Source of the DNA: an uncultured Gammaproteobacteria bacterium
GTDB lineage: Bacteria; Pseudomonadota; Gammaproteobacteria; Pseudomonadales; Pseudohongiellaceae
Direction of reading: 5' to 3'
NCBI GenBank assembly: GCA_913060495.1
Contig: CAJXRP010000007.1
Span: 1-64,000, forward strand
DNA: 64,000 nt
Shown: positions 11,388-63,295 of the stretch, one piece after another
How the letters are laid out: each line of letters starts with the position of its first letter
Position numbering within the stretch: position 1 is the stretch's first letter
The notes under the pieces: model-generated
What the model saw: only the letters and a program-made list of their open reading frames with translations
What the model was told of the DNA's origin: nothing
Databases searched by the model: none
Position numbers and translations under genes: made by a program

Positions 11388-11477
11388 ATTCCCCCCCCTG
11401 TTTTGTCACAGTGACACAAGAAATTCCTTTTTTGCGATCGTTTAGCCTAATGAGTTGACTTTGGGCTCTTCTCAAAA

Positions 11478-11497
11478 TACTGTATATATATACAGTA
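11478..11497 (+). promoter_or_regulatory. LexA (SOS) box upstream of dnaE2
   Basis: The 20-base perfect palindrome TACTGTATATATATACAGTA contains CTGT-N8-ACAG (11480-11495), the ideal gammaproteobacterial LexA site. TATAAA at 11496-11501 directly follows as a possible -10 element, so LexA would block RNA polymerase. It lies 18 bases upstream of the ATG at 11515, marking dnaE2 as DNA-damage inducible. Confidence 0.92.
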
Positions 11498-11514
11498 TAA
11501 AATCCCATCACATC

Positions 11515-14500
11515 ATGACCCTAAACCATTCGATAGCACGCGATCCTGCATCTCAGGCGGAGGCAGGCGCGACTCTTGACCCCTACAATAAAGGCAGGGC
11601 TGTGAAGACTCGGCCGGCAACCGCGCAGGCTTACGCTGAATTACACTGCATTTCCAATTTTACATTTTTACGGGGTGCTTCGTTTCCTGAGGAGTTGGTA
11701 GAGCGAGCGGTGGTGCTTGGATACAGCGCTATTGCGATTACCGACGAATGCTCACTGTCCGGTGTGGTAAAGGCGCACATGGCCGCGAAACAGCGTGCCA
11801 TCAAATTAATCATCGGTAGTGAATTTGTGTTGCGCGGTGCAGCAACTGAATCTGGGCAAGATGAACTTCCTGCTAGCGGCCAAAATGCCTTGAACAACGG
11901 CATGCACATCGTATTTCTTGCCCTCAATCGCAAAGGCTATGGCGAGCTCAGTCACCTAATAAGCTGTGCGCGTCTACGGGCAGATAAGGGTGAGTATCGA
12001 GTCGATAGTGAGCTGCTGCAGGAAAAGTTTCCTACCGATTGCGCGCTATTGTGGATTCCTGATCTTAAGCAGCCAGATGCCAGCATCGAATCTCAGGCAG
12101 GCTATCTGCGCTCTCTAACGGCAGGCAATCTGTGGATCGCTGCGGAGCTTCTGCTTAACGGGCGCGATAGACTAAAGCTAAAACGGTTACGTAGCTTGGG
12201 TAGGAAGTTTGATATTCCTGTGTGTGCTGCGGGCGGAGTTTACATGCACGAAGCTGGGCGGCGTATCGTGCAAGACACACTGACGGCAATACGTTTGGGT
12301 CAGCCGTTGTCGGAGATCGGTTTCGCTGTCGAACCAAATTCCCAGAGACACTTACGCAGTATCGAGCAACTCAGGAAACTCTATCCGGTAGAGCTTCTCG
12401 AAGAGACGCTCACAATCGCGAACCGCTGCGATTTTTCTCTGGACGAGCTTCGCTACGAATATCCATCGGAGCTCGTGCCGAAAGAACATACGGCTCACTC
12501 TTGGTTATGGCAGTTAACTAGAGAAGGAATCAAGAAGCGCTGGCCACAGGGGATATCGGAAAAGAATCAGAAAATTATCGAACACGAGATGCGGCTGATA
12601 AAGCAGCTGTCCTATGAACATTTCTTCCTGACGGTGCATGAGATAGTTTGTTTCGCCGTTGAGCAGAATATCTATTGTCAGGGCCGCGGCTCTGCCGCTA
12701 ACTCTGCAGTCTGTTACTGCCTCGGAATAACTGAGGTGAGTCCCGATCACGCAGAATTGTTGTTCGAACGCTTTCTCTCCCCCGAACGTTCGGAGCCACC
12801 AGACATTGATGTGGATTTCGAGAACAGTCGCCGCGAAGAAGTGATTCAGCACATCTATCAGAAGTATGGTCGTCATCGCACGGCGATCGCGGCGACAGTC
12901 ATTACTTACCGTTCTCGCAGTGCTGTGCGCGATGTAGGTAAGGCATTGGGTCTCGATGATGATCTGATCAATCGCCTTGCTAAGTCGATCTTTTGGTGGG
13001 GCAGCGATTTGGAAGAGCAGCTATCGGACTCGGGCGTTGACTATACCGAACCAAAGATTAAGACCCTCATACACCTCGCTCGATCTCTGATGGGCTTTCC
13101 TCGTCATCTGTCTCAACATGTTGGTGGCTTCATTATTAGTCAGGGGGATTTGTCGCATCTTGTTCCTATCGAGAATGCAGCTATGGTGGATCGAACAATC
13201 ATCCAATGGGACAAAGACGACCTGGAATCTTTAGGCCTGCTTAAAGTTGATGTACTCGCGTTGGGGATGTTGAGTGCCATACACAAGGCGATAGATCTGG
13301 TGAATAGCTATACCGTCGAAGAAATAGGTATGGATAAAATCTCTTTGAAGGAAGACCCGCAAGTCTATGACATGATCTGCGAGGCTGACACGGTAGGCGT
13401 TTTCCAGATTGAGTCTCGCGCTCAGATGAGTATGTTACCTAGGCTAAAGCCCCGCAGTTATTATGATCTGGTCATACAAATTGCAATCGTCAGGCCCGGT
13501 CCGATTCAGGGGGATATGGTGCACCCTTATCTGGAGCGCCGCAAAAACCCTAGCAAGATCAAATACGAGAGCGAGGCAGTGAGAGAGACGCTGCAACGTA
13601 CTCTGGGTGTGCCGATTTTTCAGGAACAGATCATGAAGTTGGCTATGGTAGCTGCTGGGTTCTCCGCGGGTGAAGCGGATCAGCTACGTCGTGCCATGGC
13701 AGCATGGAAGAAGAAGGGGGGGCTCGAGCCATTTCGAGATAGATTAATTTCCGGCATGGGGGCTCGCGGCTACAGTGAAGACTTTGCTCTGCGTATCTAT
13801 AGTCAGATTAAAGGCTTCGGTGACTATGGGTTTCCAGAGTCGCATTCGGCAAGCTTCGCACTGCTCGCCTATGTTTCTTCCTGGTTAAAGTGCCATCACC
13901 CCGCCGCGTTTTGCTGTGCTCTGCTTAATAGCCAGCCTATGGGTTTCTACCTGCCGGCCCAGTTGGTTCAGGATGCTGTACGTCATGGTGTTGTGGTTCT
14001 GAGCATTGATGTAAATGAAAGTTATTGCGACTCTACTCTTGAGTTCAAAAAAGGTATGCCCGAAAAACCTGTCCTGCGTTTGGGTTTTTCTTTGGTAAAA
14101 GGTTTATCTGCAGCCGGGGCCGAGTCAATCTGTCTGGCGCGAAGTTCGGGCCGATTTACATCGGTGCAAGATTTGCTGACAAGAGCGGCGTTGAACAAGA
14201 AAGACAGTGAAAGTCTTGCCGCCGCCGATGGGCTGAACACACTGGCCGGTGACAGACACAGAGCCTTCTGGATGGTGGCTGGGGCCGACAAACCCCTGTC
14301 CTTTTCCGAGAGTCACTCAGGTAGTGAAACAGGCAGGCAGTCGCTCACTCTAGAGCAAAGTGACTTTGGTGTAGATGTATTACTGCCTGTTCCGTCGGAA
14401 GCCAATAATATAATGGCTGACTATGCCAGCACTGGGTTGACCCTGCGTAGGCATCCTGTGGCCTTGTTACGCCCGCACCTCGATTTGTACCACGTGAAAA

Positions 14501-14814
14501 GCGCCAATAGTCTTCAGTCGATACAGAGTGAAGGCTTTATTAAGGCGGTGGGTATCGTAACGAGCAGACAGCGCCCACAGACGGCGGCGGGAGTTACCTT
14601 CTTAACCTTAGAAGACGAGAGCGGTTTCGTTAATGTGGTTGTCTGGCCAAGCTTGGGAGAGAAGCAGCGACCTATTGTAAGAAGGGCGGTGCTAATAGGT
14701 GTAGTTGGTCATGTGCAGAAAAGCGATGGTGTAGTGCATCTCATCGCTAGAGAGTTGGTCGACCTTAGTCAGTGGCTGGGCGCGATGAATTTGTCATCAC
14801 GAGATTTTGTTTGA
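11515..14814 (+). CDS. dnaE2: Error-prone DNA polymerase III alpha subunit DnaE2 (ImuC)
   Basis: 1,099 residues from ATG at 11515. The PHP domain opens with YAELHCISNFTFLRGAS. The polymerase palm carries PPDIDVDFENSRREE, with catalytic aspartates near D430 and D432. Helix-hairpin-helix and OB-fold domains follow (GVTFLTLEDESGFVNVVVWP). The overall length and the LRRHPVALLRPHL segment separate DnaE2 from the replicative DnaE. DnaE2 does translesion synthesis in the SOS mutasome with ImuA and ImuB. Start choice: a TTG at 11455 would put the LexA box inside the gene, so it is rejected. ATG 11515 lacks a ribosome-binding site; GTG at 11602, preceded by AGGCAGGG, is an alternative and would begin 12 residues before YAELHC. 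It converges on the 14831 gene with 16 bases between stop codons. Confidence 0.93.
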   Translation: MTLNHSIARDPASQAEAGATLDPYNKGRAVKTRPATAQAYAELHCISNFTFLRGASFPEELVERAVVLGYSAIAITDECSLSGVVKAHMAAKQRAIKLIIGSEFVLRGAATESGQDELPASGQNALNNGMHIVFLALNRKGYGELSHLISCARLRADKGEYRVDSELLQEKFPTDCALLWIPDLKQPDASIESQAGYLRSLTAGNLWIAAELLLNGRDRLKLKRLRSLGRKFDIPVCAAGGVYMHEAGRRIVQDTLTAIRLGQPLSEIGFAVEPNSQRHLRSIEQLRKLYPVELLEETLTIANRCDFSLDELRYEYPSELVPKEHTAHSWLWQLTREGIKKRWPQGISEKNQKIIEHEMRLIKQLSYEHFFLTVHEIVCFAVEQNIYCQGRGSAANSAVCYCLGITEVSPDHAELLFERFLSPERSEPPDIDVDFENSRREEVIQHIYQKYGRHRTAIAATVITYRSRSAVRDVGKALGLDDDLINRLAKSIFWWGSDLEEQLSDSGVDYTEPKIKTLIHLARSLMGFPRHLSQHVGGFIISQGDLSHLVPIENAAMVDRTIIQWDKDDLESLGLLKVDVLALGMLSAIHKAIDLVNSYTVEEIGMDKISLKEDPQVYDMICEADTVGVFQIESRAQMSMLPRLKPRSYYDLVIQIAIVRPGPIQGDMVHPYLERRKNPSKIKYESEAVRETLQRTLGVPIFQEQIMKLAMVAAGFSAGEADQLRRAMAAWKKKGGLEPFRDRLISGMGARGYSEDFALRIYSQIKGFGDYGFPESHSASFALLAYVSSWLKCHHPAAFCCALLNSQPMGFYLPAQLVQDAVRHGVVVLSIDVNESYCDSTLEFKKGMPEKPVLRLGFSLVKGLSAAGAESICLARSSGRFTSVQDLLTRAALNKKDSESLAAADGLNTLAGDRHRAFWMVAGADKPLSFSESHSGSETGRQSLTLEQSDFGVDVLLPVPSEANNIMADYASTGLTLRRHPVALLRPHLDLYHVKSANSLQSIQSEGFIKAVGIVTSRQRPQTAAGVTFLTLEDESGFVNVVVWPSLGEKQRPIVRRAVLIGVVGHVQKSDGVVHLIARELVDLSQWLGAMNLSSRDFV

Positions 14815-14830
14815 TCGGTTTGATCTAATT

Positions 14831-15805
14831 CTAAAGATCGAAAAAAAGCATCTCCAAATTTATCATAAGCTTTGGCTGAGGCCGCCATTTTTCATCGCGT
14901 GATACGATTAGTTGCGGTCTGATTTCAAGAAACAGCCATTGCCCTCGAATTGCTCGTCGATACTGTGCCCCTACGTAGTAGTCATTAATTCTTACATTGG
15001 GTGTGTTGATGCCCAGTATGCCTAGCTCATAGCTCATAGTTTCAAATTGCCCGAGAGTGTTATGCAGGGCGACGGTTTGACTGAACTCTGTTTGCTTACT
15101 TTCCTGCTGGTATCTAACTTCTGAAGAAATTTGTAATATTTTTTCTTGATCGATTCTTCGATTGAATGAGACGTCAGTATTGTAGCCCCAGCCTTGGCTT
15201 TTGTAGTGCCATATTTTTTGACGATAGCCTATAGACCAGTCGTTGTTTATCTGTTGTTCATACTGTGTCTTGAGTCGATAGAACGGATCGGCTGGCACTC
15301 TAGACCTGAAGCCTATTGAATGACTTACTTGCCAAGAACCAGTGGTGCTTTGCTGGTAACTAAGCCCACCAATCGATTCAGTTGAGGCTTCATCTCTGAG
15401 CACGCTGCCTTCCAGAGAGTTGAGTTCTGCTGCGTCCGATTCGAATATCAGTTTCCAGCGCTCTGATGTTTGGGGTAGGTCGAGACTTCCGTCGATTTTC
15501 AGCCTTGAATGGTATCCGTCAAAGGAGGCGGCCTGTTGATTAAAACGGATACGTAAATAGGTTTCGTTTGAATTATCTCCAATGCTTTCGCCAGATAGCC
15601 AAGCATCAAGATTCCGGCCTAGGGCCGTAACGTTCTGGGAGATTTGGCTTCTTCCCTTTTCCAGCCATTGCCATGAATCAGCTTCAGCTAGCGGATCGGA
15701 CTCAGCAGCATCTACGGAATAGCTGAACAAGGCTGCAACAGAAAGGATATAGAGTAGTTCGGCACGTTTGCCTACTAGAGCTATTAGCCAGCGTAAGCTA
15801 ATCAT
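14831..15805 (-). CDS. Predicted outer-membrane beta-barrel protein between dnaE2 and imuB
   Basis: From ATG at 15805 the protein has about 324 residues; an in-frame start at 15856 adds 17 residues ahead of the signal sequence. A signal peptide (LLYILSVAALFSYSVDA-AES) is followed by alternating-polarity strands rich in Tyr, Trp and Gln, such as WSIGYRQKIWHYKSQGWGY and WLFLEIRPQLIVSRDEKW. The chain ends in ...EMLFFDL rather than a clear aromatic C-terminal signature, though FF near the end is compatible with BAM recognition. I know no named family. It lies 104 bases downstream of imuB on the same strand and could be co-transcribed from the SOS promoter; no promoter or terminator is obvious between them. 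Confidence 0.72.
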   Translation of the reverse strand: MISLRWLIALVGKRAELLYILSVAALFSYSVDAAESDPLAEADSWQWLEKGRSQISQNVTALGRNLDAWLSGESIGDNSNETYLRIRFNQQAASFDGYHSRLKIDGSLDLPQTSERWKLIFESDAAELNSLEGSVLRDEASTESIGGLSYQQSTTGSWQVSHSIGFRSRVPADPFYRLKTQYEQQINNDWSIGYRQKIWHYKSQGWGYNTDVSFNRRIDQEKILQISSEVRYQQESKQTEFSQTVALHNTLGQFETMSYELGILGINTPNVRINDYYVGAQYRRAIRGQWLFLEIRPQLIVSRDEKWRPQPKLMINLEMLFFDL

Positions 15806-15960
15806 GCCAAAGCCGCTCTTTGATGTTTTATGTAATTGTTGCTCATAACAATACAATTCTGTAACAAATAGAATGATTAAGTATTAATGTAAATCATAGC
15901 ATTGAAATTTAGGTTTTCAGGTTTAGAAGATAGGTTTAAAAGGCAGATTAGACAATCAAT

Positions 15961-17457
15961 CTAGGCGAATATGCCGTGTAGGTACCATTTCCCTGCATCG
16001 TTCTTTTCTTTGTAGATCCATAGTTTGCTGCCACTAAGTTCTCTAGCGACATAATAGTCTCGACACACATCGGCTCCTGACCACCAATGTGTCTCTATAC
16101 GCTCGGGCCCACTTAAGATGGCGATAGGCTTTCGATAGAAAAGCCTGCCCTTGTTGATGTTGAGTTGCTTGGGTTTCTGCAGTAGCCATAGAGGCCTAGG
16201 ATTTGCAGGAGTTTCTGTAGATAAAGCCGCGCCGATTTTCCGATTCGGCTTCTCTTTGTAGTCGAGATGTAGGCTTGCATGCTCTGGGCAATGCTGAGCT
16301 GTATTAATAACACTCTTTACATAATTGTCACCGAGTCTTGCCTGTAGCTGTTCCATAAATTGAATTAGATTATGATTACTATATGGTGTCGAAACTAATT
16401 CATCGTCTCTTAAAAAAGAATCGTTCTTGGCAAAAAAAGCATCAAATTTTTTAACTTCGATTTTTATAGAAACTACCGGAGCTGGAATAGATAGCTTATC
16501 GAAATGAGTTTCTAATAATAGAGTGAGATGTTCCTGGGAACGACTTGCCATACGTAAGCCAATATTAATTTCGGTGCGATCGCGTTTTTCATGAAATAGA
16601 GATAGAACTAGACTGCTAGTACTAAGGTCTCTCCGCCGTAAAAAGTCGCAAAGCTGTGCCAGAAGTTCGTCGGCAATCGGTAATAGTCGATCAAGGTTCT
16701 CAAGTTCATAAGGCAGGTCATAGGATGCTATGAATTCCGGAGGGGGAATATAATTTTGCGTCGGCTCTGCTGCCTTGCCCAGTGCCTGATTTAACTGGTT
16801 AACAAAATTGCTGCCAAAACGTTTGCGCAAGCCATCGCTGGGTAGGCGCCAGATGTCCCTTAAATAATTAATGCCCATATTAAGAAGTCGTCTTCGCTGT
16901 TCTTTATTTAGGTCTAGAACGTCTATAGGGAGTTGCCCTAATGCGGAGCGTAGGTTTTCTTTTTGGTAGACCAGTGCGTTGTGCCCCGACCTAGCTAACA
17001 ATAAGCTGCCGCTGACAGTGGGGCTGGCAGCATAGGAAAAATCATCTGCCATGGCCCATTGCTGTAATTGTTCCTCAAAGAGTTTTTGCAATTTTTGATG
17101 AATAGCGTCGATGCCGGAAAAATATTTCAAACTACTGCGGATCTCGCAGATTAATGCCTGGGGATGAAAGCTCACGGTAGAGCTAACACTTTGCATGAGC
17201 TCGGCTAATTGGGTGAGATATTTCTTCTGTTGTGCTGAATCTAGTTCTCTAAGCTGAGGAAGATAGAGCGCATACCATAGACTATTAGATCTGCTGCGCT
17301 TTGTGACGGCTTTGGCCTGTGCGCCACCCGCCGTAGCACTGTAGGTTTTCTCCTTCGCTAGGTCTCTGTCTTGCGCAGGGAGTTGGATGATCTGAGCGCC
17401 AGATTCGGGCGCTATACAGGGCAGAGGGAGCTGTGCCTCACTGTCTGGGTCTTTCAA
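15961..17457 (-). CDS. imuB: ImuB, catalytically inactive Y-family polymerase-like mutasome protein
   Basis: 498 residues. The N-terminus, SLWYALYLPQLRELD, is the ImuB form of the Y-family palm, where the catalytic Asp of DinB/UmuC is lost. ICEIRSSLKYFSG, DDFSYAASPTVSGSLLLARS and GLRKRFGSNFVNQLNQALG follow the Y-family order. The C-terminus has the ImuB-specific signature HWWSGADVCRDYYVARELSG. ImuB scaffolds the translesion mutasome, linking DnaE2, ImuA and the beta clamp. It begins 18 bases after imuA on the minus strand and shares its SOS promoter. dnaE2, the usual third gene of the cassette, is not downstream but comes from the opposite direction. Confidence 0.92.
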   Translation of the reverse strand: MKDPDSEAQLPLPCIAPESGAQIIQLPAQDRDLAKEKTYSATAGGAQAKAVTKRSRSNSLWYALYLPQLRELDSAQQKKYLTQLAELMQSVSSTVSFHPQALICEIRSSLKYFSGIDAIHQKLQKLFEEQLQQWAMADDFSYAASPTVSGSLLLARSGHNALVYQKENLRSALGQLPIDVLDLNKEQRRRLLNMGINYLRDIWRLPSDGLRKRFGSNFVNQLNQALGKAAEPTQNYIPPPEFIASYDLPYELENLDRLLPIADELLAQLCDFLRRRDLSTSSLVLSLFHEKRDRTEINIGLRMASRSQEHLTLLLETHFDKLSIPAPVVSIKIEVKKFDAFFAKNDSFLRDDELVSTPYSNHNLIQFMEQLQARLGDNYVKSVINTAQHCPEHASLHLDYKEKPNRKIGAALSTETPANPRPLWLLQKPKQLNINKGRLFYRKPIAILSGPERIETHWWSGADVCRDYYVARELSGSKLWIYKEKNDAGKWYLHGIFA

Positions 17458-17475
17458 GGCGTTGCTCCAGACAGC

Positions 17476-18207
17476 TCAGGGTTGTTGGTAGAGGTTAATG
17501 TTTGCGCTTAGTGAACGGAAATTGCCTCTAGCCTTAATAACGGTTACTTCAGACTCGTTAAAACCTGCATTTTCTGTATAAGAGTCCTGTATTTTAAGGC
17601 GTATAGGTGATGGTGAGTGCTCACTATCATGATGTTTGAACAACACCCCTAAAGTGTCTCCTGTGTCTGCTGCCAGCTGTAGGCGGCGCAATACTTTAGT
17701 CGGTAGCCAGTTCTGCCAAGCCAATACCAGGCCGCAATTTTCGGTCTGTAGAGCCTTTTCCATACTCCATAAAGCGTCTTTACAGGAGGTGTCTAATTTG
17801 ACCACCAACACTTGGTCGGTATTAATTCCCGCTTGAACTAAGGCAGGGGCATAAAGCAAATACGGAGGCGATATCCATAGGATCCATTTCCCTTGTTCAA
17901 CAATTGAACGCATGAGTGGAATCAGCAGCTGCAATTCGCCCATTCCCCAATGAGGTGTGATGACTTCCATTAAACCTTTCTCTGGCCACCCGCGCCCGGG
18001 AAGAATTTCATCCAGTTGTGGAAAACCAGTACTTCGACCCTGTATGCCCTGACCGGCCATATCGCAGCCACGCCATAGGTTCGGATTGCTTTGTATTAGC
18101 TCGTCTATATCGCTAGAGCCCGCACCATGGAAGGCATCTGCCTGTTCTGGCTGATATTGGTTCTGGTATAGCTGCTGCGTGTCTGAGTGGTTTTGAATAG
18201 TAGTCAT
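17476..18207 (-). CDS. imuA: ImuA, SOS mutasome RecA/SulA-like protein
   Basis: 243 residues from ATG at 18207. An upstream in-frame start at 18312 is rejected because it would enclose the LexA box. The core LWRGCDMAG...TGFPQLDEILPGRGWPEKGLMEVI, followed by HWGMGELQLLIPLM, is the RecA-like N-terminal region of ImuA/SulA-type proteins, with a degenerate P-loop. Later AWQNWLPTKVLRRLQLAAD and SPIRLKIQ are typical of ImuA. ImuA binds ImuB and RecA and is required for SOS mutagenesis with DnaE2. It is the first gene of the imuA-imuB unit. Confidence 0.9.
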   Translation of the reverse strand: MTTIQNHSDTQQLYQNQYQPEQADAFHGAGSSDIDELIQSNPNLWRGCDMAGQGIQGRSTGFPQLDEILPGRGWPEKGLMEVITPHWGMGELQLLIPLMRSIVEQGKWILWISPPYLLYAPALVQAGINTDQVLVVKLDTSCKDALWSMEKALQTENCGLVLAWQNWLPTKVLRRLQLAADTGDTLGVLFKHHDSEHSPSPIRLKIQDSYTENAGFNESEVTVIKARGNFRSLSANINLYQQP

Positions 18208-18227
18208 TATGCTCAACCTAAATAGTA

Positions 18228-18243
18228 CTGGATGGATATACAG
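18228..18243 (-). promoter_or_regulatory. LexA (SOS) box upstream of imuA
   Basis: On the minus strand the sequence is CTGTATATCCATCCAG, with CTG and CAG half-sites 10 bases apart as in the E. coli LexA consensus. Flanking TA on both sides extends the palindrome. TACTAT follows as a likely -10. It lies 20 bases upstream of the imuA ATG. Confidence 0.88.
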
Positions 18244-18400
18244 TATTATAGGCAGCAATTTCTCCAGCGCAATAGAAACTTCAAACTTTCGATAATTGGA
18301 CGGAGGTTCCATCGCTAATCGGTTGTTTTTTCGAGGAAATTAAAGGTTTGGCAAGAAGAGACGTTAAAGCTCTTGTACGTTGAACAGCATGGAGACGAAT

Positions 18401-52169: not shown

Positions 52170-52754
52170 GTGAATCCAAAACTAACCCGTAGACGCTTTA
52201 TCAAAGGTGTAATTGCCTCTGGTGCAGCTGCCACTTCAACCACAATCTGGTACACGGCCAATGGCCAATCACGTCCAGCAGGTGCTGTTGAACGCATGAT
52301 CAGAATTAATATTAACGGCCAGATGCGCAACGTAGACGTAGCGCCCCAGGAAACACTGGCATCTACCCTTCGTTACAAGCTTGGCCTAACCGGCACAAAG
52401 CTGGGATGTAATCGCGGCGAATGTGGCGCGTGCACCGTTCTTGTTAACGATATCCCAAGTTATGCCTGTTCGGTATTGACGCACTCAGTTAAGAACATGC
52501 GCGTCGAATCTGTAGAGGGTCTGGAGTCGGCTAATGGCGATCTTCACCCAGTGCAGCAGGCATTCGTGGATGAGCTTTCTCCACAGTGCGGTTACTGCAC
52601 ACCAGGTCAGGTTATGTCCGCTGTAGGTTTACTGCGTTCTAACCCAAATCCAACAAGAGAAGAAGCACGACAAGGTATGGCAGGTAACATATGCCGCTGT
52701 GGTTCTTATGATTCTTACCTTAACGGCGTCATGCGCGCAGCACAAATAGGATAA
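52170..52754 (+). CDS. Molybdenum hydroxylase [2Fe-2S] subunit with Tat signal (PaoA-like)
   Basis: 194 residues from GTG at 52170. LTRRRFIKG is a twin-arginine signal, so the complex is exported folded. The plant-ferredoxin domain binds one cluster through C80, C85, C88 and C100 (GCNRGECGACTV, YAC), and the helical domain binds the second through C140, C143, C175 and C177 (QCGYCTPGQ, ICRCGSY). These transfer electrons from the molybdenum centre to FAD. The same layout is seen in E. coli PaoA and in CoxS/IorA proteins. The ribosome-binding site GGAGG is 12 bases from GTG, unusually far, with an ATG-TAA mini-ORF between. The next gene is five bases away. Confidence 0.92.
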   Translation: MNPKLTRRRFIKGVIASGAAATSTTIWYTANGQSRPAGAVERMIRININGQMRNVDVAPQETLASTLRYKLGLTGTKLGCNRGECGACTVLVNDIPSYACSVLTHSVKNMRVESVEGLESANGDLHPVQQAFVDELSPQCGYCTPGQVMSAVGLLRSNPNPTREEARQGMAGNICRCGSYDSYLNGVMRAAQIG

Positions 52755-52759
52755 TCAAC

Positions 52760-55183
52760 ATGGCATATATGCATATTGGTAAAGATTTTGTTCCACCAGA
52801 TGTGCCTGGCAAAGTTACAGGCCGCATTAAATACGCTGAAGACTATGCTCGAGATGGCATGGTTTACGCTCGTTTACTAACTAGTCCCGTACCTCATGGG
52901 CGCGTCGTCAACATCGATGCTTCTGAAGCGCTTGCGATGGAAGGTGTGTTCGGCATTTTGACTGCCGACGACGTGTATCCAGATGGCGAGCCACAGAGTC
53001 CGGGTCTCAAAGTATTAACGAATGAGCCTACTCTTATGGGTGAGCCTATTCTTGCAGTAGCGGCGGTCGACGAGAAAACTGCCGAAAACGCTATCGCTGC
53101 AATTGAGCTGACAATCGAGAGACTACCTTTCGTACTAGACCCGCTAGACAGTCTTGAGGAAGGTGGAGCCAACGCCTACAACGGCGGTAATACTTTTATC
53201 TTTCGCCAAGGTTTCGCGGAAGAGAAGTGGACGTCGGATCAGGTTGAGAGCTTTAGAAGTGGTAACGAACCTACTGCCGAAGCACAGCAAAGCTGGGAAT
53301 ACGGCGATCTTGAAGCAGGTTTTGCCGCTTCAGATTTCGTTCACGAAACAACATTCTCTACAGCTGGTTACCCGCACATGTCTATGGAGCCTCGTAGCGC
53401 CATGGCTTACTGGGAAAACGGCAAATGCTTTCTACACGGTACTTCACAGAGCTTAAGTGCAATCGCCGAGCCTATGGCAGCGATTGTAGGTGTGCCTCTT
53501 GAAGATTTCGTTTTTATTAATGAGGCAACCGGTGGTGGTTTCGGTCAGCGAGCTCGTGCAGGAAGTATTCCTAGCATGGCGATTCCTGCGAAACTTTCTC
53601 TGAAGATAAACCGCCCAGTGATGATGCGTGTATCACGCGAAGAAGAATTCACCATAGGTGGGGCGCGGCAGGGTCTTCAAGGCTGGATCAAAGTTGGATT
53701 TAAATCTGACGGAACTATGGCTGCGATGGACATGTACTGCGTCTCCGATAACGGCGGCAAGGGTGGTGGCGGCGACGCTAACTCCGCAGCAGCCGGTGTA
53801 AGCGCGCTTTATCAAACTGAGGCGATGCGCTTTCGCAACACGTCTATTGGTACTAATACTGGTCACCGTGGTGCACAGCGTGGTCCAGGTGAAAACCAGA
53901 TCATGGCAGTAGTGGCGCCTATCTTAGACAAAGCAGCCGAAGAACTTGGCCTGGATCGCTTGGCAATCCGTAAGCTCAACGCCGCACAAAATGGCGATGT
54001 GAGTGGACCAAGAAGCACACCATTTACTAGTGCCTATATGCCCGAAGCTTTACAGCAAGGCGCAGATCAGTTTGATTGGGAAGGCAAAAAAGGCCGCTCT
54101 CGCCAAACTAATGGCAGCAAAGTAAGAGGCCTTGGCATCGGTCAGGGATATCACAATGCAGGTCGTAGCGGCATGGACGGTATCGTTCGTCTAATGCCAA
54201 ACGGACGACTGCAGGTACACAACGGTATTGGTAACCTCGGTACTTATTCTTATGCATCTACCTCTCGCGCAGCAGCGGAAGTGCTGAAGATGGATTGGGA
54301 AAATTGCGATGTTGTCACCGGTCGTACCGACAGACACCTTCCAATTACGTCACCACAAGATGGTAGTAACTCTATCTTTACTAACACGCGCACCTGCTTT
54401 GGTGCGGCGCAAGATTTGTTAGCAAAGATGAAGGAAATTGCTGCAATGGATCTTGGCGGCGAGACTGCTGATTACGACGTAGATGGTACTAGGGTTCATC
54501 AGATCGCAGACAACACTGTAGGCATGACCTATGCAGAAGTTGCTCAACGCGGCATAGAGCTTGGTGGCAAATTCTCTGGCGAGTCTGATTTACCAGAAGA
54601 ACTAAATACTCTTACAACACTGTCGGTCTCACGACTTGCGGGCTCTGCATTGATGGGCATCTATCATGATCCTCGTCACAGCGATAATCCTCCAGGTTTC
54701 ACGGTAACGTACACTGAAATCGAATTGGATAAAGAGACTGGTAAGTTTGAAATTCTCGATATGGTAACTATTGCTGAGTGTGGAACGGTCGTTCATCCAC
54801 AAGGTTTGGCAAATCAGTTGAGAGGTGGCGCAGTTTGGGGAATCGGTCTTTCGGTATTAGAGAGACATCTTTACGATCCTCAGAATGGTCTTCCAGCGAG
54901 CAGTGGCTATTGGCAGAGCAAGATTCCTACGTATCTTGATACGCCGGCAGAAATTGGCACGGGCTGGGTTGATTTACCCGATCCAGAAAACCCTGTTGGC
55001 GCTAGAGGTATTGGCGAGCCAGCAATGGGCGCAGTATCGGCCGCACTTAACGCTGCAATCTCAGACGCACTCGGTGGACATTTGTTTGACACCTCGCCTG
55101 TGACTACAGACATGATCATTAACCACATAGCTGGGGTTTCGGAAGAAGCAAAGCCTCTAGCTCAAAATAATTTCAGAGGTTGA
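52760..55183 (+). CDS. Molybdenum hydroxylase large subunit (xanthine dehydrogenase/PaoC/CoxL family)
   Basis: 807 residues. The N-terminal VTGRIKYAEDYARDGMVYAR is the usual entry of the aldehyde oxidase domain. The molybdopterin region has EATGGGFGQRARAG (family GGGFG), NTGHRGAQRGPGENQI and the catalytic glutamate in ARGIGEPAMGAVSAAL near residue 755. It lacks the AYxCSFR loop of CO dehydrogenase, so carbon monoxide is not the substrate; an aldehyde or N-heterocycle is more likely. It has no signal of its own and should travel with the Tat-carrying subunit. Two bases separate it from the FAD subunit. Confidence 0.92.
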   Translation: MAYMHIGKDFVPPDVPGKVTGRIKYAEDYARDGMVYARLLTSPVPHGRVVNIDASEALAMEGVFGILTADDVYPDGEPQSPGLKVLTNEPTLMGEPILAVAAVDEKTAENAIAAIELTIERLPFVLDPLDSLEEGGANAYNGGNTFIFRQGFAEEKWTSDQVESFRSGNEPTAEAQQSWEYGDLEAGFAASDFVHETTFSTAGYPHMSMEPRSAMAYWENGKCFLHGTSQSLSAIAEPMAAIVGVPLEDFVFINEATGGGFGQRARAGSIPSMAIPAKLSLKINRPVMMRVSREEEFTIGGARQGLQGWIKVGFKSDGTMAAMDMYCVSDNGGKGGGGDANSAAAGVSALYQTEAMRFRNTSIGTNTGHRGAQRGPGENQIMAVVAPILDKAAEELGLDRLAIRKLNAAQNGDVSGPRSTPFTSAYMPEALQQGADQFDWEGKKGRSRQTNGSKVRGLGIGQGYHNAGRSGMDGIVRLMPNGRLQVHNGIGNLGTYSYASTSRAAAEVLKMDWENCDVVTGRTDRHLPITSPQDGSNSIFTNTRTCFGAAQDLLAKMKEIAAMDLGGETADYDVDGTRVHQIADNTVGMTYAEVAQRGIELGGKFSGESDLPEELNTLTTLSVSRLAGSALMGIYHDPRHSDNPPGFTVTYTEIELDKETGKFEILDMVTIAECGTVVHPQGLANQLRGGAVWGIGLSVLERHLYDPQNGLPASSGYWQSKIPTYLDTPAEIGTGWVDLPDPENPVGARGIGEPAMGAVSAALNAAISDALGGHLFDTSPVTTDMIINHIAGVSEEAKPLAQNNFRG

Positions 55184-55184
55184 T

Positions 55185-56180
55185 ATGCCAGCCACATCAC
55201 ATGACGTAATGCCAGATATCGAACTTTATCAGCCTACTGATGAAGCAAATGCTCTAGATTTAGCAAGCACTCTAGGCGAAGACGGTTGGATAGTTGGTGG
55301 CGGACAGGATACTTATGGCTGGTTGAAAGACCGCAACAAGTCTCCCGCCGCTATGATCGAAATAGCCCAGATAGATGCTTGGAAAGGAGTGAAAGAAACT
55401 GCAGACGGTATAGAAATCGGTGCGGTAACAACACTTACAGACATCGCTAATCATCCTCTGGTGCAATCCAAATTCAGCCTGCTTGCAACAGCGGCGAGCA
55501 AGGTTGCTAGCCCACAGATTCGCAATGTTGGAACCTTGGGTGGCAATTTAAATCAGGACGCGCGTTGCTGGTATTACCGCCGCGGACTGGATTGCTACCG
55601 TGCAGGTGGCAATATTTGCTATGCAGATTCTCCAGAAGGCTTGAATCGCGAGCACGCCATCTTCGGAGCGAGCCGCTGTGTTGCGGTAACCCCTTCGGAT
55701 ACTGCGCCTGCTCTAGTAGCTCTTGATGCAACTATGGTTGTAGCGAGCGCGAGTGGCGAGAGACTGATTCCTGCCGGCGATTTCTTTGTAGGTCCTGATC
55801 GCGACATCGTCAATATGACTGTGTTGAATGAAGGTGAGATTCTGACAGCAGTTCGACTACCCAATGAATGGGCAAACGCGGAGTTCTACTTTGAGAAAGT
55901 CGCCGACAGAAACGTATGGGACTTTGCCTTAGTGAATGTTGCTGCGGCGTTTAAAGTTTCAGGTGGTTCAATTTCAGATGCTCGTATAGTTTGCGGTGCA
56001 GTTGAATGTACACCTAGGCGTCTGGAAGCTGTAGAGAATGCTATTCGCGGACAGCAGCGTTCAGAAACTTTGGCAGACCAGGTCGCAGCCATCTCTGTAG
56101 AGGGCGCGAGACCTTTGAATTACAATAATTTCAAAGTGCCATTGATGGAAAATCTAGTTAAACGAGCGATCCGAGGTTAA
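55185..56180 (+). CDS. Molybdenum hydroxylase FAD subunit with an extra Fe-S site (PaoB-like)
   Basis: 331 residues. The FAD domain has VGGGQDTYGWLKD and NVGTLGGNLNQDA. Between them and the substrate side, four cysteines, C128, C137, C145 and C165 (ARCWYYRR, LDCYRA, NICYAD, ASRCVAV), match the loop that binds a [4Fe-4S] cluster in E. coli PaoB. The C-terminal CO-dehydrogenase flavoprotein domain follows. It would accept electrons from the [2Fe-2S] subunit and pass them on, here probably to the membrane cytochrome encoded next. Confidence 0.9.
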   Translation: MPATSHDVMPDIELYQPTDEANALDLASTLGEDGWIVGGGQDTYGWLKDRNKSPAAMIEIAQIDAWKGVKETADGIEIGAVTTLTDIANHPLVQSKFSLLATAASKVASPQIRNVGTLGGNLNQDARCWYYRRGLDCYRAGGNICYADSPEGLNREHAIFGASRCVAVTPSDTAPALVALDATMVVASASGERLIPAGDFFVGPDRDIVNMTVLNEGEILTAVRLPNEWANAEFYFEKVADRNVWDFALVNVAAAFKVSGGSISDARIVCGAVECTPRRLEAVENAIRGQQRSETLADQVAAISVEGARPLNYNNFKVPLMENLVKRAIRG

Positions 56181-56239
56181 ACCTCGGGTTTACTCGAGCT
56201 AACTAAATAATAAACATAAGAAATTAAGAGGGTAGTACT

Positions 56240-57007
56240 GTGGGAGAAATTGTCCGCTATAAACGCGATGTTTGGGGCGAGGAAGTAATTCTCGGTGTTT
56301 CATGGGATTTACTCTGGGTTGTTGCAGTTGCAGTTTTAGTTCTACTTGCAGCCCATGCGATCATTATGGCTGCTTTGGCCAACAAGAAGATAGAAAAGGC
56401 TTCGTCCGAAGGACGGCGCGTTCTTCGTCATGAGACTATCGATCGATTGTTTCACTGGGTAATGGCAGCAAGCATTCTAACTCTGATTGCCACAGGTATA
56501 GCGCCGATTCTTGGTCTACGAATTGCCTGGTTGAATATCCATTGGATCGCCGGTCTATTGCTTACTTTCGTGGTGGTTTTTCATATTATTCGCTCGCTTT
56601 TCTGGCAAGATTTTAAGTCTATGATTCTTGCCCCTAAAGATTTTGGCGAGCCATTCGATTCAGCGCAGAAGCCGGGTAAATATACTTTCGAACAGAAGGG
56701 TATGCACTGGGCAGTAACGGTAGTTGTCTTGGCAGTTATTGCCACTGGCATTCTATTGTTCTTGCAGATTGACAGCCCATTCTGGGATCGCACTAATAGC
56801 ATGGCTGAAGACACTCTAGGCCTAATGTTCTTGTTGCACGGTCTTTCTACTCTTGCATTGGTAGCTCTTGCCGCAACGCATATCTACTTTGCTCTGAGAC
56901 CAGAAAAATTGTTCTACACACGTTCTATGGTATCCGGTTGGATTTCGGAAGATGAAATGACGGCAAACCATGACACAAGTCTGTGGTCTCCAAAAGAAGC
57001 CGATTAA
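56240..57007 (+). CDS. Membrane cytochrome b (formate dehydrogenase gamma-like)
   Basis: 255 residues. An N-terminal helix (residues 24-48) precedes the four-helix di-heme core. Heme-ligand histidines are visible in RHETIDRLFHWVMA, NIHWIAGLLL, VVFHIIRS, GMHWAVTVVV, LLHGLSTLAL and ATHIYFAL. The family passes electrons from a periplasmic dehydrogenase to quinone (as FdnI/FdoI do). It is 59 bases after the FAD subunit, in the same operon, so it is the likely electron exit of the hydroxylase. PaoABC itself has no such subunit. Confidence 0.87.
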   Translation: MGEIVRYKRDVWGEEVILGVSWDLLWVVAVAVLVLLAAHAIIMAALANKKIEKASSEGRRVLRHETIDRLFHWVMAASILTLIATGIAPILGLRIAWLNIHWIAGLLLTFVVVFHIIRSLFWQDFKSMILAPKDFGEPFDSAQKPGKYTFEQKGMHWAVTVVVLAVIATGILLFLQIDSPFWDRTNSMAEDTLGLMFLLHGLSTLALVALAATHIYFALRPEKLFYTRSMVSGWISEDEMTANHDTSLWSPKEAD

Positions 57008-58687: not shown

Positions 58688-59896
58688 ATGAATAAGATCT
58701 CTCGGGAACAGGCTTTAAAGGCACTGATTGCGACTAGCTTTATCTTACCCGGCTATCTCGGATTTTCCATTTTGGCTACGGCTCAAGATGGAAGCGCTGG
58801 CGCGAGTACATCGTATCAGCCTGATGGAGTAGCAGCAGCTAGCTATTCCGCTCCAGAGCCAGCGAACCCACTAATGGAGAGTGACAATGAAGATCAGTTA
58901 CTCTCGAATACCCGTCAATTGATAGAAGGCAGTCTGCGTTCTGGAGAAGGTTACTTCAGTGCGGATGGCGATCGCTTCATCTATCAGAGCGAGACCACTG
59001 GCGACAATCCGTTCTATCAGATCTATGTTTTGAATCTCGCCGATGGCAGTTCGAGAAAAGTATCTCCCGGAATCGGGCTCACTACGTGTGCATGGATTCA
59101 CCCGACTTTGGATAGGGTAATGTTTTCCTCTACACATGAAGACCCTGATGCACGTGCCAAGCAGGCAGAAGAGATATCTATACGCGAGAGCGGGATTAGC
59201 CGGCCCTATGGCTGGGACTATGATCGTCACTACGATATCTATCAGGCAGACAGCAATGGCAACAACTTAATCAATCTTACAAGTACTGATGGTTATGATG
59301 CTGAGGGTTCTTACTCGGCCGATGGTAGCCAGATTCTTTTCGCATCAAACCGAGAGGCCTATCAGCGTAATCTGAGTCAGGCAGAGCAAAAGTTATTTGA
59401 TGACGATGCTTCCTATTTTATGGACCTCTATGTAATGGATGCCGATGGCACGAATGTGCGGCAGATAACACATTCCCCCGGCTACGATGGCGGGCCTTTT
59501 TTTAGCCCAGATAATAATAAAGTTGTATGGCGTCGCTTTAATCCAGACGGTAATAGTGCAGAGATCTGGACTATGAATATAGACGGTAGCGGTCAGCGTC
59601 AATTAACGGCTGATGCAATGGTCTCTTGGGGGCCTTACTATCATCCAAGCGGCGACTATATTATTTATTCCAGCAATATCCTAGGGAATGCGAATTTCGA
59701 ATTGTTCATGATAGATCCTGAGGGTGCGAATCCACCGGTGCGTGTAACCAATACTGCGGGTACGGATATCCTGCCGGTGTTCTCTCCAGATGGAAATCAG
59801 TTGGCGTGGAGCACAACACGCACTGCAGATGGTACATCGCAAATTCACATGAGCGATTGGAATCACCAACAAGCTCTGCAGTTGTTGGGACTGTAA
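58688..59896 (+). CDS. Exported TolB-like WD40/PD40 beta-propeller protein
   Basis: 402 residues. An N-terminal hydrophobic stretch (residues 12-33) ending ILATAQ-D is a signal peptide. From residue 75 on, PD40-type blades repeat: GEGYFSADGDRFIYQSE, AEGSYSADGSQILFASNR, DGGPFFSPDNNKVVWRR, WGPYYHPSGDYIIYSSN, LPVFSPDGNQLAWSTTR. These propellers recognise proteins or peptides in the periplasm. No catalytic domain is attached. The neighbouring metallopeptidase gene follows 33 bases later, so the propeller may present substrates to it (inference). Confidence 0.85.
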   Translation: MNKISREQALKALIATSFILPGYLGFSILATAQDGSAGASTSYQPDGVAAASYSAPEPANPLMESDNEDQLLSNTRQLIEGSLRSGEGYFSADGDRFIYQSETTGDNPFYQIYVLNLADGSSRKVSPGIGLTTCAWIHPTLDRVMFSSTHEDPDARAKQAEEISIRESGISRPYGWDYDRHYDIYQADSNGNNLINLTSTDGYDAEGSYSADGSQILFASNREAYQRNLSQAEQKLFDDDASYFMDLYVMDADGTNVRQITHSPGYDGGPFFSPDNNKVVWRRFNPDGNSAEIWTMNIDGSGQRQLTADAMVSWGPYYHPSGDYIIYSSNILGNANFELFMIDPEGANPPVRVTNTAGTDILPVFSPDGNQLAWSTTRTADGTSQIHMSDWNHQQALQLLGL

Positions 59897-59929: not shown

Positions 59930-62900
59930 ATGACTAACAGGATTTCACAAAGCGTGTTGCATCGAACTGTCATTGTTGGCTTAAGTCTGTTGTGTGGCTT
60001 CTCATTGTTAGGGAATTCCGTATCGGCGCAGATCCCCGATGCTGTGGCAATTGAGCCCGAGCCCGCACTTGTTCACCATAGCCTTAAGGTAACTCTCGAT
60101 CCACAGAACCAATCGTTGTCTGTAGAGGACACGATTACACTGACGGATTCGATGCTAGCGTCCCCACTAAGCTTCTCGCTAAACAGCAATCTCCGCATTA
60201 GCAATAACCCCAGGCGCCTACAAGAACTTGTCAGTGATGCAGCAACAGCTGAGCCAGGGATCAACAATACTGGTGGCTTAGCCGCAGCTACCACCACATA
60301 CAGTATTAGTCCCCCGCGCAGAAATTCAACTCAGCTAGTTCTTATCTATAGCGGGACCATCTTCGATAGCGCAGAGCAGACAAGTGCCGAGTATGCGCAG
60401 AGCTTCGGGGAAAGTTCAGGCATCATCAGCGAACAAGGTGTCTATTTGAACAAGGGTAGCGCCTGGATTGCAGATTTCGGCGGTGACCTAATTAGTTTTG
60501 ACGTGCAGGTAGAGTTCGTCGATTCGGCGTCTGCTTGGACGGCAGTGAGCCAGGGTGATCGCCTTGGTGGCAACGGTTGGCGCAGCGATCAACCCATGGA
60601 AGAGGTCTATCTGATCGCGGCCGATTTTACTGAGTATTCGCAACAGGCGGACGATGTTGAGGTTCTTGCTTACCTGCGAACACCGGACTCTGACCTTGCG
60701 ACAAAATACATGGACGCGACTGGGCGCTATCTCGAGTTGTATGAACCGCTGCTAGGTGAATACCCCTATAGTAAATTTGCATTGATCGAAAATTTTTGGG
60801 AAACCGGCTATGGGATGCCATCGTTTACCCTCCTCGGGGAGCAGGTAATTCGTTTTCCCTTCATACTCGAATCGTCCTACCCTCATGAAATTCTTCATAA
60901 CTGGTGGGGTAACGGAGTCTACCCTGACTACGAGACAGGAAACTGGAGCGAAGGTCTTACAGCCTATCTTGCCGATCACTTGTTTCGGGAAATGGATGGC
61001 TTAGGGCATGAGTATCGCAAAGAGATGCTGGCTAGATACAAGAACTATGTAGCTGATGGTACGGATTTTCCTCTCTCAGAATTTACCTCGCGAAACTCAG
61101 CTGCTTCTCAAGCCGTTGGCTACGGTAAAACACTTATGCTCTGGCATATGCTTCGAGTTGAAATTGGTGATGACTTGTTTCTGGATGGGCTCAGACAGTT
61201 CTACGAGCGTTACAAATTCAAGCGCGCGACTTTCAAAGATATCGCTCTACATTTTACTGAGTTGAGTGGTTTAGATCTGACTGGCTTCTTTAGTCAGTGG
61301 GTGGATCGAACGGGCGCGCCCGAGTTGTCTATTTCAGTGGAAGAGGTAATAGGTAATCGTGCTCGAATAATGTTCGCGCAGATTCAGGCTGAAGAGCCTT
61401 ACCTACTGAAAGTGCCAGTCGCACTCTATTACGAAGGAAGCGATGTTCCGGAAATTTATGACATCGATGTCACGCAGCGACTTGAAGGCGTGATGGCTGA
61501 TAACTACGATCAATTACAGGCTGTGTTAGTTGATCCTTATTTTGATGTGTTTCGAACTTTGGATAGGGAAGAGACCCCTCCTACTATTGGTGAATTATTC
61601 GGAGCCCAGACAATCAGTTTTGTCTTGCCGCAAACCAATCGACAATATTGGGCGCAGATGGCTGAATCCTTCGCCGCTGGCATCGATGTGCAAATAGTCA
61701 ATGCAGAAGATATTGCCGAAATACCGCAGGATAGATCGGTGTGGATACTAGGGCGTGACAATCCCTTCGCTCCTTCTGTATATGCTGCAAGTGAATTGTA
61801 TGGAGTTCAAGCGAGCCCGTCGGGCATTCTCATGGGCGGAGAAGATGTGCAATTTGCAGACAGAAGCAGCGTACTAGTTGCTCGTCATCCAGCAAATTCT
61901 GAGCTCGCTCTAGGCATTATCGATGTAGATCAGATGATTGCTATGCCAGGCATGATTGAGAAGCTGCCGCACTACGGGAAGTATTCCTACCTAAGTTTTT
62001 TGGGAGATGAGCCTACTAATGATGTAAAAGGAATTTGGTCTAGCCCAGATTCACCAATGCAATGGGTCAAGCCGGATCTTCAAGTAGCAATGAATTTTCA
62101 GAACTTACCGGAGGTAGAGCCGCTCACACTACTTCCTTCGAAGTATAGTGCCGATCAGCTCAGAGAGCACGCGAGGCAACTTAGTGCTGCAGAGTTTCAG
62201 GGCAGAGGTCTTGGGACGAATGGTGTCGACTTGGCGGCACAGTACATTGCCGAACAGTTTCGTGCCGCCGGACTTCAGACTCTTAATGGAACTTACAGTC
62301 AAGAGTGGAACCAAAGTGTTGCCGGTAAAGGCAACGTCAAGATGAGAAACATCGTCGGCATGATCCCCGGCATCAATCGTTCGCTTAGCGGTGAGCCTGT
62401 AATCATTGGTGCCCACTACGATCACCTTGGCATCGATCCCCTCTCTGGTCGTCACTTTCCCGGAGCAGACGATAACGCGGCAGGCATTGCTGCATTAATA
62501 GAGGTGGCAAGCCAGTTGGTGCGCGCTTTCACTCCACAGAGACCAATATTCTTCGTTGCTTTCAGCGGAGAAGAGTCTGGCTTGTTGGGCTCGGAATATT
62601 TTGTAGATAATCCACCTGCTGGATTTGAATCGCGAAATTTCTACGCGATGATAAATCTCGACGCTGTAGGGCGTCTCGATGGACGGGACTTGCAGGTATT
62701 TGCTACCGACAGTGCCTATGAGTGGCCTTTCATGGCGCAAGGAATCGGGTTCACCATCGGTGTGAATTCCAGCTTTCCAGTTAACACAATTGCTAGCAGT
62801 GACCATGTGAGCTTCCTCAATGCAGGAATACCTGCCATCCACTTATTCAGTGGCGTGCACGAGGATTATCATCAGTTGAGTGACAGCGCCGACAAGCTCG

Positions 62901-63295
62901 ACCTAGCTGGTTTAGCTGATGTAGCGCTTTGGCTAGAAGAGGCTGCGGTCTATCTCGCCGATAATGTCGAACCACTGCGGGTGACACTTACCGGTGCGCC
63001 GGTTCGAGTGCAATCCAGAGCTAGTGGGGAGAGATCTGCTAGCTTGGGAACCGTGCCAGACTTCGCTTTTGCAGGTGTCGGAGTTCGCATCAGTGGTGTG
63101 ACTCCAGGCGGTGCTGCGGAACTAGCTGGTTTGCAGGCTGGGGACATTTTGCTCACTTACAATGAACAAGCCATGACTGACCTGCAGGTCTACTCAAATC
63201 TTTTAAGAGAATCCGCTCCTGGCGATACCGTGCGTATAGATATTCAACGCGATACTCAGCAGTTAACGCTAGAGGCGGTCTTGCAGGCTCGCTAG
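59930..63295 (+). CDS. Two-domain metallopeptidase: M1-like domain, M28 domain and C-terminal PDZ domain
   Basis: 1,121 residues with a signal peptide ending near VSAQ. Residues 45-560 form an M1-like aminopeptidase module; its zinc site is H319-E-I-L-H323 with a distal E341 in WSEGLTAYLAD, while the GxMEN exopeptidase motif is replaced by ENFWETGYGMPSF. Residues 720-1000 form an M28 aminopeptidase with the five zinc ligands in order: GAHYDHLG, GADDNAAGIAAL, AFSGEESGLLGSEYF, MINLDAVGR and HEDYHQLSD. Residues 1030-1115 form a PDZ domain (ISGVTPGGAAELAGLQAGD). One frame, no stop, and a good linker of about 160 residues argue for a genuine fusion. It should act in the periplasm or at the surface on peptides. 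Confidence 0.9.
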   Translation: MTNRISQSVLHRTVIVGLSLLCGFSLLGNSVSAQIPDAVAIEPEPALVHHSLKVTLDPQNQSLSVEDTITLTDSMLASPLSFSLNSNLRISNNPRRLQELVSDAATAEPGINNTGGLAAATTTYSISPPRRNSTQLVLIYSGTIFDSAEQTSAEYAQSFGESSGIISEQGVYLNKGSAWIADFGGDLISFDVQVEFVDSASAWTAVSQGDRLGGNGWRSDQPMEEVYLIAADFTEYSQQADDVEVLAYLRTPDSDLATKYMDATGRYLELYEPLLGEYPYSKFALIENFWETGYGMPSFTLLGEQVIRFPFILESSYPHEILHNWWGNGVYPDYETGNWSEGLTAYLADHLFREMDGLGHEYRKEMLARYKNYVADGTDFPLSEFTSRNSAASQAVGYGKTLMLWHMLRVEIGDDLFLDGLRQFYERYKFKRATFKDIALHFTELSGLDLTGFFSQWVDRTGAPELSISVEEVIGNRARIMFAQIQAEEPYLLKVPVALYYEGSDVPEIYDIDVTQRLEGVMADNYDQLQAVLVDPYFDVFRTLDREETPPTIGELFGAQTISFVLPQTNRQYWAQMAESFAAGIDVQIVNAEDIAEIPQDRSVWILGRDNPFAPSVYAASELYGVQASPSGILMGGEDVQFADRSSVLVARHPANSELALGIIDVDQMIAMPGMIEKLPHYGKYSYLSFLGDEPTNDVKGIWSSPDSPMQWVKPDLQVAMNFQNLPEVEPLTLLPSKYSADQLREHARQLSAAEFQGRGLGTNGVDLAAQYIAEQFRAAGLQTLNGTYSQEWNQSVAGKGNVKMRNIVGMIPGINRSLSGEPVIIGAHYDHLGIDPLSGRHFPGADDNAAGIAALIEVASQLVRAFTPQRPIFFVAFSGEESGLLGSEYFVDNPPAGFESRNFYAMINLDAVGRLDGRDLQVFATDSAYEWPFMAQGIGFTIGVNSSFPVNTIASSDHVSFLNAGIPAIHLFSGVHEDYHQLSDSADKLDLAGLADVALWLEEAAVYLADNVEPLRVTLTGAPVRVQSRASGERSASLGTVPDFAFAGVGVRISGVTPGGAAELAGLQAGDILLTYNEQAMTDLQVYSNLLRESAPGDTVRIDIQRDTQQLTLEAVLQAR

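Follow-up and report, generated by a model that had tools for sequence, protein, structure and literature searches.

An open reading frame at positions 59930 to 63295 (+) of a 64,000-nucleotide stretch of contig CAJXRP010000007.1 (assembly GCA_913060495.1, hereafter the window), from an uncultured gammaproteobacterium of the family Pseudohongiellaceae, encodes an exported-looking protein of 1,121 residues that joins an M1-like peptidase unit, an M28 peptidase domain and a PDZ domain. On the alignment of 90 representatives the M1-like unit is a coherent, distinct subfamily, which fails two defining features of M1 aminopeptidases and keeps the hydrolytic machinery. The architecture is common and modular, not a curiosity of the source genome. 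It is probably old, and M1-M28-PDZ proteins apparently constitute a large, undescribed family. We favour, tentatively, the reading that the protein is a dual-site peptidase of the cell envelope in which the M1-like site makes a cut other than that of an aminopeptidase, the M28 site trims N-termini and the PDZ domain provides capture.

Overall organization

The reading frame starts with ATG and is complete. Three regions score above the curated Pfam cut-offs, namely Peptidase_M1 (PF01433) at residues 319-457 (E 3e-10, 40.4 bits against 27.7), Peptidase_M28 (PF04389) at residues 807-999 (E 8e-38, 130.5 bits against 21.3) and PDZ_6 at residues 1054-1107 (E 3e-12, 46.6 bits against 27). In sequence searches of the PDB, residues of approximately 318-478 match M1 aminopeptidases, the M28 part leucyl aminopeptidases and the PDZ domain DegQ and DegS. 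The N-terminus, read by eye from the translation, is Sec-like, being basic then hydrophobic with VSA/Q near residue 33. An earlier note on this DNA, made from the sequence alone, had described two zinc-site modules in one exported-looking chain with a TolB-like propeller gene directly upstream. The frame, the Pfam domains and the motifs are all present where it placed them, and the propeller gene lies at 58688-59896 on the same strand. The features are as follows.

59930..63295 (+) exported-looking M1-like/M28/PDZ reading frame, 1,121 residues (translation, Pfam)
59930..60028 (+) probable Sec signal peptide, residues 1-33 (by eye)
60065..60676 (+) M1-type N-terminal beta domain, residues ~46-249 (fold only, from AlphaFold2 and structural alignment; no Pfam match)
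60812..60829 (+) G-M-P-S-F-T, residues 295-300, at the place of GxMEN (alignments)
60884..60898 (+) HEILH, residues 319-323, which supplies zinc ligands and the catalytic Glu to the M1-like site (Pfam, alignment)
60950..60952 (+) E341, third zinc ligand, 17 residues past H323 (alignments)
61121..61123 (+) Y398, counterpart of the M1 catalytic Tyr (90 of 90 sequences; aligned with a Tyr of the PepN-like protein of the same genome)
61535..62104 (+) predicted alpha/beta domain, residues ~536-725 (AlphaFold2 model)
62348..62926 (+) Peptidase_M28 domain, residues 807-999, with H829, D848, E881, E882, D911 and H981 (Pfam, PDB matches, alignment)
63089..63250 (+) PDZ domain, residues 1054-1107 (Pfam, PDB matches)
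58688..59896 (+) PD40/TolB-like propeller gene, 402 residues, directly upstream (Pfam)

The two peptidase sites

The M1-like site comprises H319, E320, H323 and E341, with 17 residues between H323 and E341 (HExxH-X17-E). The GxMEN motif is missing from the frame and the place reads G-Y-G-M-P-S-F-T (residues 293-300). Conservation was assessed over 90 representatives, of which 69 carry M28, PDZ or both and the other 21 carry none of the two; the set leaves out most loci of the same genus, near-duplicates, fragments and one interrupted copy (L095). H319, E320, H323, E341 and Y398 are invariant in all 90. Pro297 and Ser298 are likewise present in 90 of 90, at about the place of the Glu-Asn of GxMEN, the profile alignments being loose in that stretch, and G-M-P-S is the invariant sequence across the subfamily. 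The 17-residue spacing occurs in 88 of the 90; the remaining two (L088 and L132) fall outside the search pattern, yet their aligned residues agree.

The source genome supplies a control in its PepN-like M1 protein, which has GAMEN and an 18-residue spacing (X18). A second M1 paralogue reads GGMEH, with 18 residues counted by eye. In profile alignments with both, the M1-like block falls opposite their motifs, loosely in the GxMEN stretch. The unit scores above the PF01433 cut-off and carries the catalytic tyrosine whilst lacking HEXXH-X18-E and the GxMEN exopeptidase motif. Of 58 genomes searched, 55 gave a match to at least part of the protein, and 30 loci of the same genus, own included, were fetched. 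All three domains lie in one frame in 27 of these loci, the other three being contig-cut or interrupted, and wherever the loci cover it the block NFWETGYGMPSFTLLG...HEILHNWWGN...GNWSEGL shows almost no variation. This recurrence, together with the return of the same motifs in many phyla, far exceeds chance.

The absence of GxMEN and the loss of one residue before the distal glutamate, both pointed out in the earlier note, are real and prove to be fixed features of the whole subfamily. For that reason the altered specificity which the note had proposed, an action on other ends of a peptide, is a fair reading. Its alternative, that the M1-like part serves in recognition only, is taken up below.

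The M28 domain scores above its cut-off and retains the metal ligands, as the PDZ domain exceeds its own. His829, Asp831, Asp848, Glu881, Glu882, Asp911 and His981 are invariant in the 64 complete fusions among the 90, and we take them to include the M28 ligands and catalytic glutamate. The best solved relatives of this part by sequence are aminopeptidases.

Predicted structure

Structure prediction, which the earlier note had proposed as a check, recovers the fold of M1 domains I-III with high confidence. The AlphaFold2 model of residues 34-742, from an alignment of 66 rows, has a pLDDT of 91.4 and a pTM of 0.91. Foldseek and VIA-align group the model with M1 enzymes, and comparison with solved M1 chains shows domains I-III to be present. 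The best match is tricorn factor F3, with a Z of 32.5 and an rmsd of 3.1 over 456 aligned residues, the one other match within 1 Z of it being an engineered form of F3 (VIA-align). The next matches, at Z 28-30, are PepN, IRAP, LTA4 hydrolase and a two-domain Deinococcus enzyme.

PepN carries a helical domain IV at the position where our model, at its residues ~501-690 (~534-723 of the protein), displays mixed strands and helices, as seen within the 34-742 model. For this predicted alpha/beta domain PDB sequence matches reach E 0.47 at best, and any Pfam family appears in one of 47 members at most. A full-length model gives a pLDDT of 89.8 and a pTM of 0.83, and a fold search with it returned only M1 chains among the top 50.

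Distribution and history of the architecture

Contigs were scanned with the M1-like alignment and the best 80 of at least 560 relatives kept, a set biased to near relatives. In 72 of these 80, M1, M28 and PDZ lie in one complete frame, that is in 28 of 29 near relatives (L031-L057, L059 and L063) and 44 of 51 others. Four (L031, L073, L105 and L109) run off the contig yet show M28, and two (L099 and L110) have the M1-like part only. One stop (L095:3478-3480) interrupts a Riflebacteria copy, either a sequencing error or decay. A Nitrospirota frame (L102:7854-10406) has the M1-like part and PDZ, the middle module M28 being missing. Two Phycisphaerales frames of 1,877 and 2,041 residues (L065:5634-11264 and L068:5262-11384, respectively) carry an N-terminal ChaN followed by M1-like, M28 and PDZ parts.

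The titles of the records with complete fusions in this set name about nine phyla (Pseudomonadota, Planctomycetota, Acidobacteriota, Calditrichota, Ignavibacteriota, KSB1, Aminicenantes, Neomarinimicrobiota and Parcubacteria), names that come mostly from metagenome bins, such that single placements, Parcubacteria above all, may be binning errors. An even sample of the class has the M1-like unit in 47 of 274 genomes. At least 12 of the 47 carry the fusion (11 through fetched loci, own included, and G090); genomes with no fetched locus were judged solo by frame length only, and the match in G312 is partial and doubtful. The earlier note had considered the architecture unusual. The 72 fused loci, the spread over many phyla and the class sample contradict this, and many proteins of this build stand in the sequence databases, although we found no characterized member. 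A rarity is therefore ruled out, as is a genus-specific fusion.

No separate M28 frame was found beside solo M1-like genes, either at E 1e-5 in L099, L102 and L110 (flanks of up to 8 kb) or at E 1e-4 in longer stretches of three solo genomes (G128, G298 and G185); the flanks of the remaining solo loci reach up to 1.5 kb only. Fusion of PD40 to the M1-like part was not seen by Pfam in four proteins.

A quick tree of the 90 M1-like units, rooted at the midpoint for drawing only, requires six changes of the fused or solo label, seven if the M1-PDZ protein is counted, against approximately 19-20 when labels are shuffled. The starred branches force at least four. Two genomes of one genus differ, G257 with M28-PDZ and G128 without. 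These label changes and this difference identify the M1 unit as the constant part and M28-PDZ as the optional part, in a set found by way of the M1 unit. Under midpoint rooting the simplest story would be one old fusion followed by several losses of M28 while M1 stayed.

Neighbouring genes

Every one of the 29 near-relative loci has a same-strand propeller frame whose end is 93-270 bases ahead of the M1 domain (in two pieces in L032), and 21 of these loci have a D-cysteine-desulfhydrase-like gene no more than 2.5 kb upstream. Fifty of the 51 other loci could be assessed, L106 being left out. Thirteen of these 50, mostly in one part of the tree, have an M16 gene directly upstream. Sixteen M16 genes were found altogether; 15 keep HxxEH and a contig end truncates the other. 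Twelve of the 50 have an adjoining PD40 gene, irrespective of strand, and five have ChaN no more than two genes away.

Among the genomes of the class sample, 44 of the 47 that have the M1-like unit also have ChaN, compared with 37 of the 227 without the unit (Fisher p 8.6e-25, which overstates independence as the genomes are related). The two genes are no more than 3 kb apart in 27 of the 47, and these include only 2 of the 11 fusions tested; the twelfth fusion genome, G090, has ChaN on another contig. ChaN overlaps the M1 gene by four bases in Azoarcus sp. KH32C; in Azospirillum thermophilum no ChaN adjoins the M1-like gene. Of 25 genomes of the same genus examined, own included, 23 have ChaN. 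Three ChaN neighbours that were scanned combine ChaN with PDZ. Complementary use of PDZ, on the M1 protein or on its ChaN neighbour and never on both, is not a rule, L114 having PDZ on both. A strict pattern for the ChaN active site fitted only 11 of 19 sequences and no claim is built on that signature.

Downstream of the reading frame (L153:752-6876) are genes for a DUF5916 protein, a GDPD and a TonB-dependent receptor. The DUF5916-GDPD pair also lies 3' of the frame in the relative L034, and genes of similar size do so in several others.

Assessment of function

The favoured reading has the protein exported, probably to the periplasm, with two independent zinc sites. Lacking the glutamate that anchors a free alpha-amino group, the M1-like site would cut within the peptide chain or at an end that is not a free N-terminus; such a cut appears most likely because the hydrolytic residues are kept whilst the residue holding the amino group is lost. 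The M28 domain would then remove amino acids from the exposed N-termini. The PDZ domain may capture substrates or partners, probably through C-termini as in HtrA-type proteases. The protein would work in a lineage-variable set for degrading peptides in the envelope, together with a PD40 propeller, an M16 peptidase and a ChaN/Tiki-superfamily protein. Ordinary aminopeptidase work could be done elsewhere since the genome has separate M1 paralogues, one with GAMEN and X18. The domains, conserved residues, predicted fold, distribution and gene linkage are what the data show directly; export, catalysis, specificity, the order of the cuts and the roles of PDZ and the partners are inferred from them.

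Several points count against this proposal. We know of no measured activity for any member. The loss of GxMEN predicts loss of N-terminal anchoring and is no proof of endopeptidase action. Several members do without M28, and cooperation between the two sites is therefore not obligatory. The partners also vary, since the ChaN of the source genome sits on another contig, 10 ChaN loci from the genus and order gave no PDZ match and no M16 gene was found in near-relative loci with one query. Furthermore NosP and AplP are described as M1 enzymes that perform both endo- and aminopeptidase cuts with GAMEN intact (PMC13039773).

A wider proposal, possible though short of probable, is that the M1-like unit defines a class of zinc peptidases of the envelope, spread across phyla, that are not aminopeptidases, working in a recurring system with ChaN/Tiki, PD40 propeller and M16 proteins, sometimes as four-module chains of ChaN, M1-like, M28 and PDZ parts.

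The linkage to ChaN also suits a different emphasis, in which the M1-like unit is a dedicated processing protease whose target is a single partner or substrate belonging to the ChaN/propeller/M16 locus, as in the maturation or turnover of an envelope protein, with M28-PDZ an optional tail that clears the products. The proximity and co-occurrence of ChaN in the class sample, the two Phycisphaerales chains, the overlapping genes of Azoarcus and the apparent loss of M28 in several lineages while M1 stayed are all consistent with this. We nevertheless regard it as rather unlikely: ChaN is not adjacent in the near-relative loci, is close in few of the fusions and does not adjoin in A. thermophilum, there is no known substrate, and the relatedness of the genomes tempers the co-occurrence.

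An ordinary scavenging pair of aminopeptidases, with another residue holding the amino group at the M1-like site and M28 broadening the specificity, would explain retention of the M1 fold and the hydrolytic residues. Two plasmid-borne solo relatives are indeed labelled 'M1 family aminopeptidase', labels that are presumably automatic. The replacement of the Glu-Asn of GxMEN by Pro-Ser in all 90 sequences makes this pairing less likely again.

The remaining two alternatives are highly improbable. The recognition-only role, with M28 doing all the cutting, might account for the X17 spacing and the missing GxMEN but is disfavoured because the zinc ligands, catalytic glutamate and tyrosine are invariant in 90 sequences from many phyla, including all 21 that lack both M28 and PDZ. 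LTA4 hydrolase acts on a non-peptide substrate besides peptides, and hydrolysis of a non-peptide or modified substrate would suit a new invariant motif at the specificity position; against it, several of the linked genes encode peptidases or propellers.

The annotated relatives that were inspected bear the label 'M1 family aminopeptidase', yet in all 90 members compared a different invariant motif stands in place of the one by which such activity is defined. If the partnership of ChaN and peptidase is tight it offers a direct, testable handle on both, and natural variants with and without M28 make the two sites separable without engineering.

Other features of the window

A third kind of zinc peptidase, of the M13 family, is encoded at 2-1990 (-) and cut by the window edge. 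At 11455-18312 there is a DNA polymerase III alpha-like gene followed, on the opposite strand, by reading frames of 341 and 498 residues that match no Pfam family and by a gene that matches SulA. With ImuB and ImuA recognized by eye, this is perhaps a mutagenesis cassette. A molybdenum hydroxylase operon at 52170-57007 encodes 2Fe-2S, molybdopterin and FAD subunits, together with a cytochrome b561; the start of the 2Fe-2S subunit looks twin-arginine-like by eye.

Comparison with known systems

A literature search, in a collection without most subscription journals and confined to the top-ranked titles where matches were many, found no description of the M1-M28-PDZ combination. In common with M1 aminopeptidases (PepN, ERAP1, tricorn factor F3, LTA4 hydrolase and the two-domain Deinococcus M1) the protein has N-terminal beta and thermolysin-like catalytic domains, HExxH...E and the catalytic tyrosine, and with most of them it also shares the beta sandwich. 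It differs in X17 for X18, GMPS for GxMEN, in the model an apparent alpha/beta domain for the helical domain IV of PepN and, often, the fused M28-PDZ. With M28 aminopeptidases of the Vibrio leucyl aminopeptidase type it presumably shares the metal-site residues, and these are its best solved-structure matches, but here M28 is the C-terminal part of a larger chain and is followed by PDZ.

The account of M1 enzymes in PMC13039773 calls HEXXH-X18-E highly conserved, and NosP has this together with GAMEN at one site. AplP and NosP, M1 enzymes that cut internally and then trim the N-terminus, resemble the activity proposed here; NosP differs in keeping GAMEN and X18 and in its single site. The PDZ families 'ZEP' (M28 and PDZ) and 'ChaN' (DUF399 and PDZ), both called uncharacterized in PMC6411480, include the same joining of M28 to PDZ, with no M1 part mentioned in the description of these families there.

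The protein and its neighbours can also be set beside tricorn and its factors F2 and F3. Tricorn combines a PD40 propeller and PDZ with M1 factors. Here there is no S41 domain by Pfam in either the reading frame or the propeller gene, the protein is exported-looking and the parts are in separate genes. The likeness, which we treat as analogy only, is that PD40 propeller, PDZ and M1 modules occur together in both, and that F3 is the top fold match to the M1-like unit.

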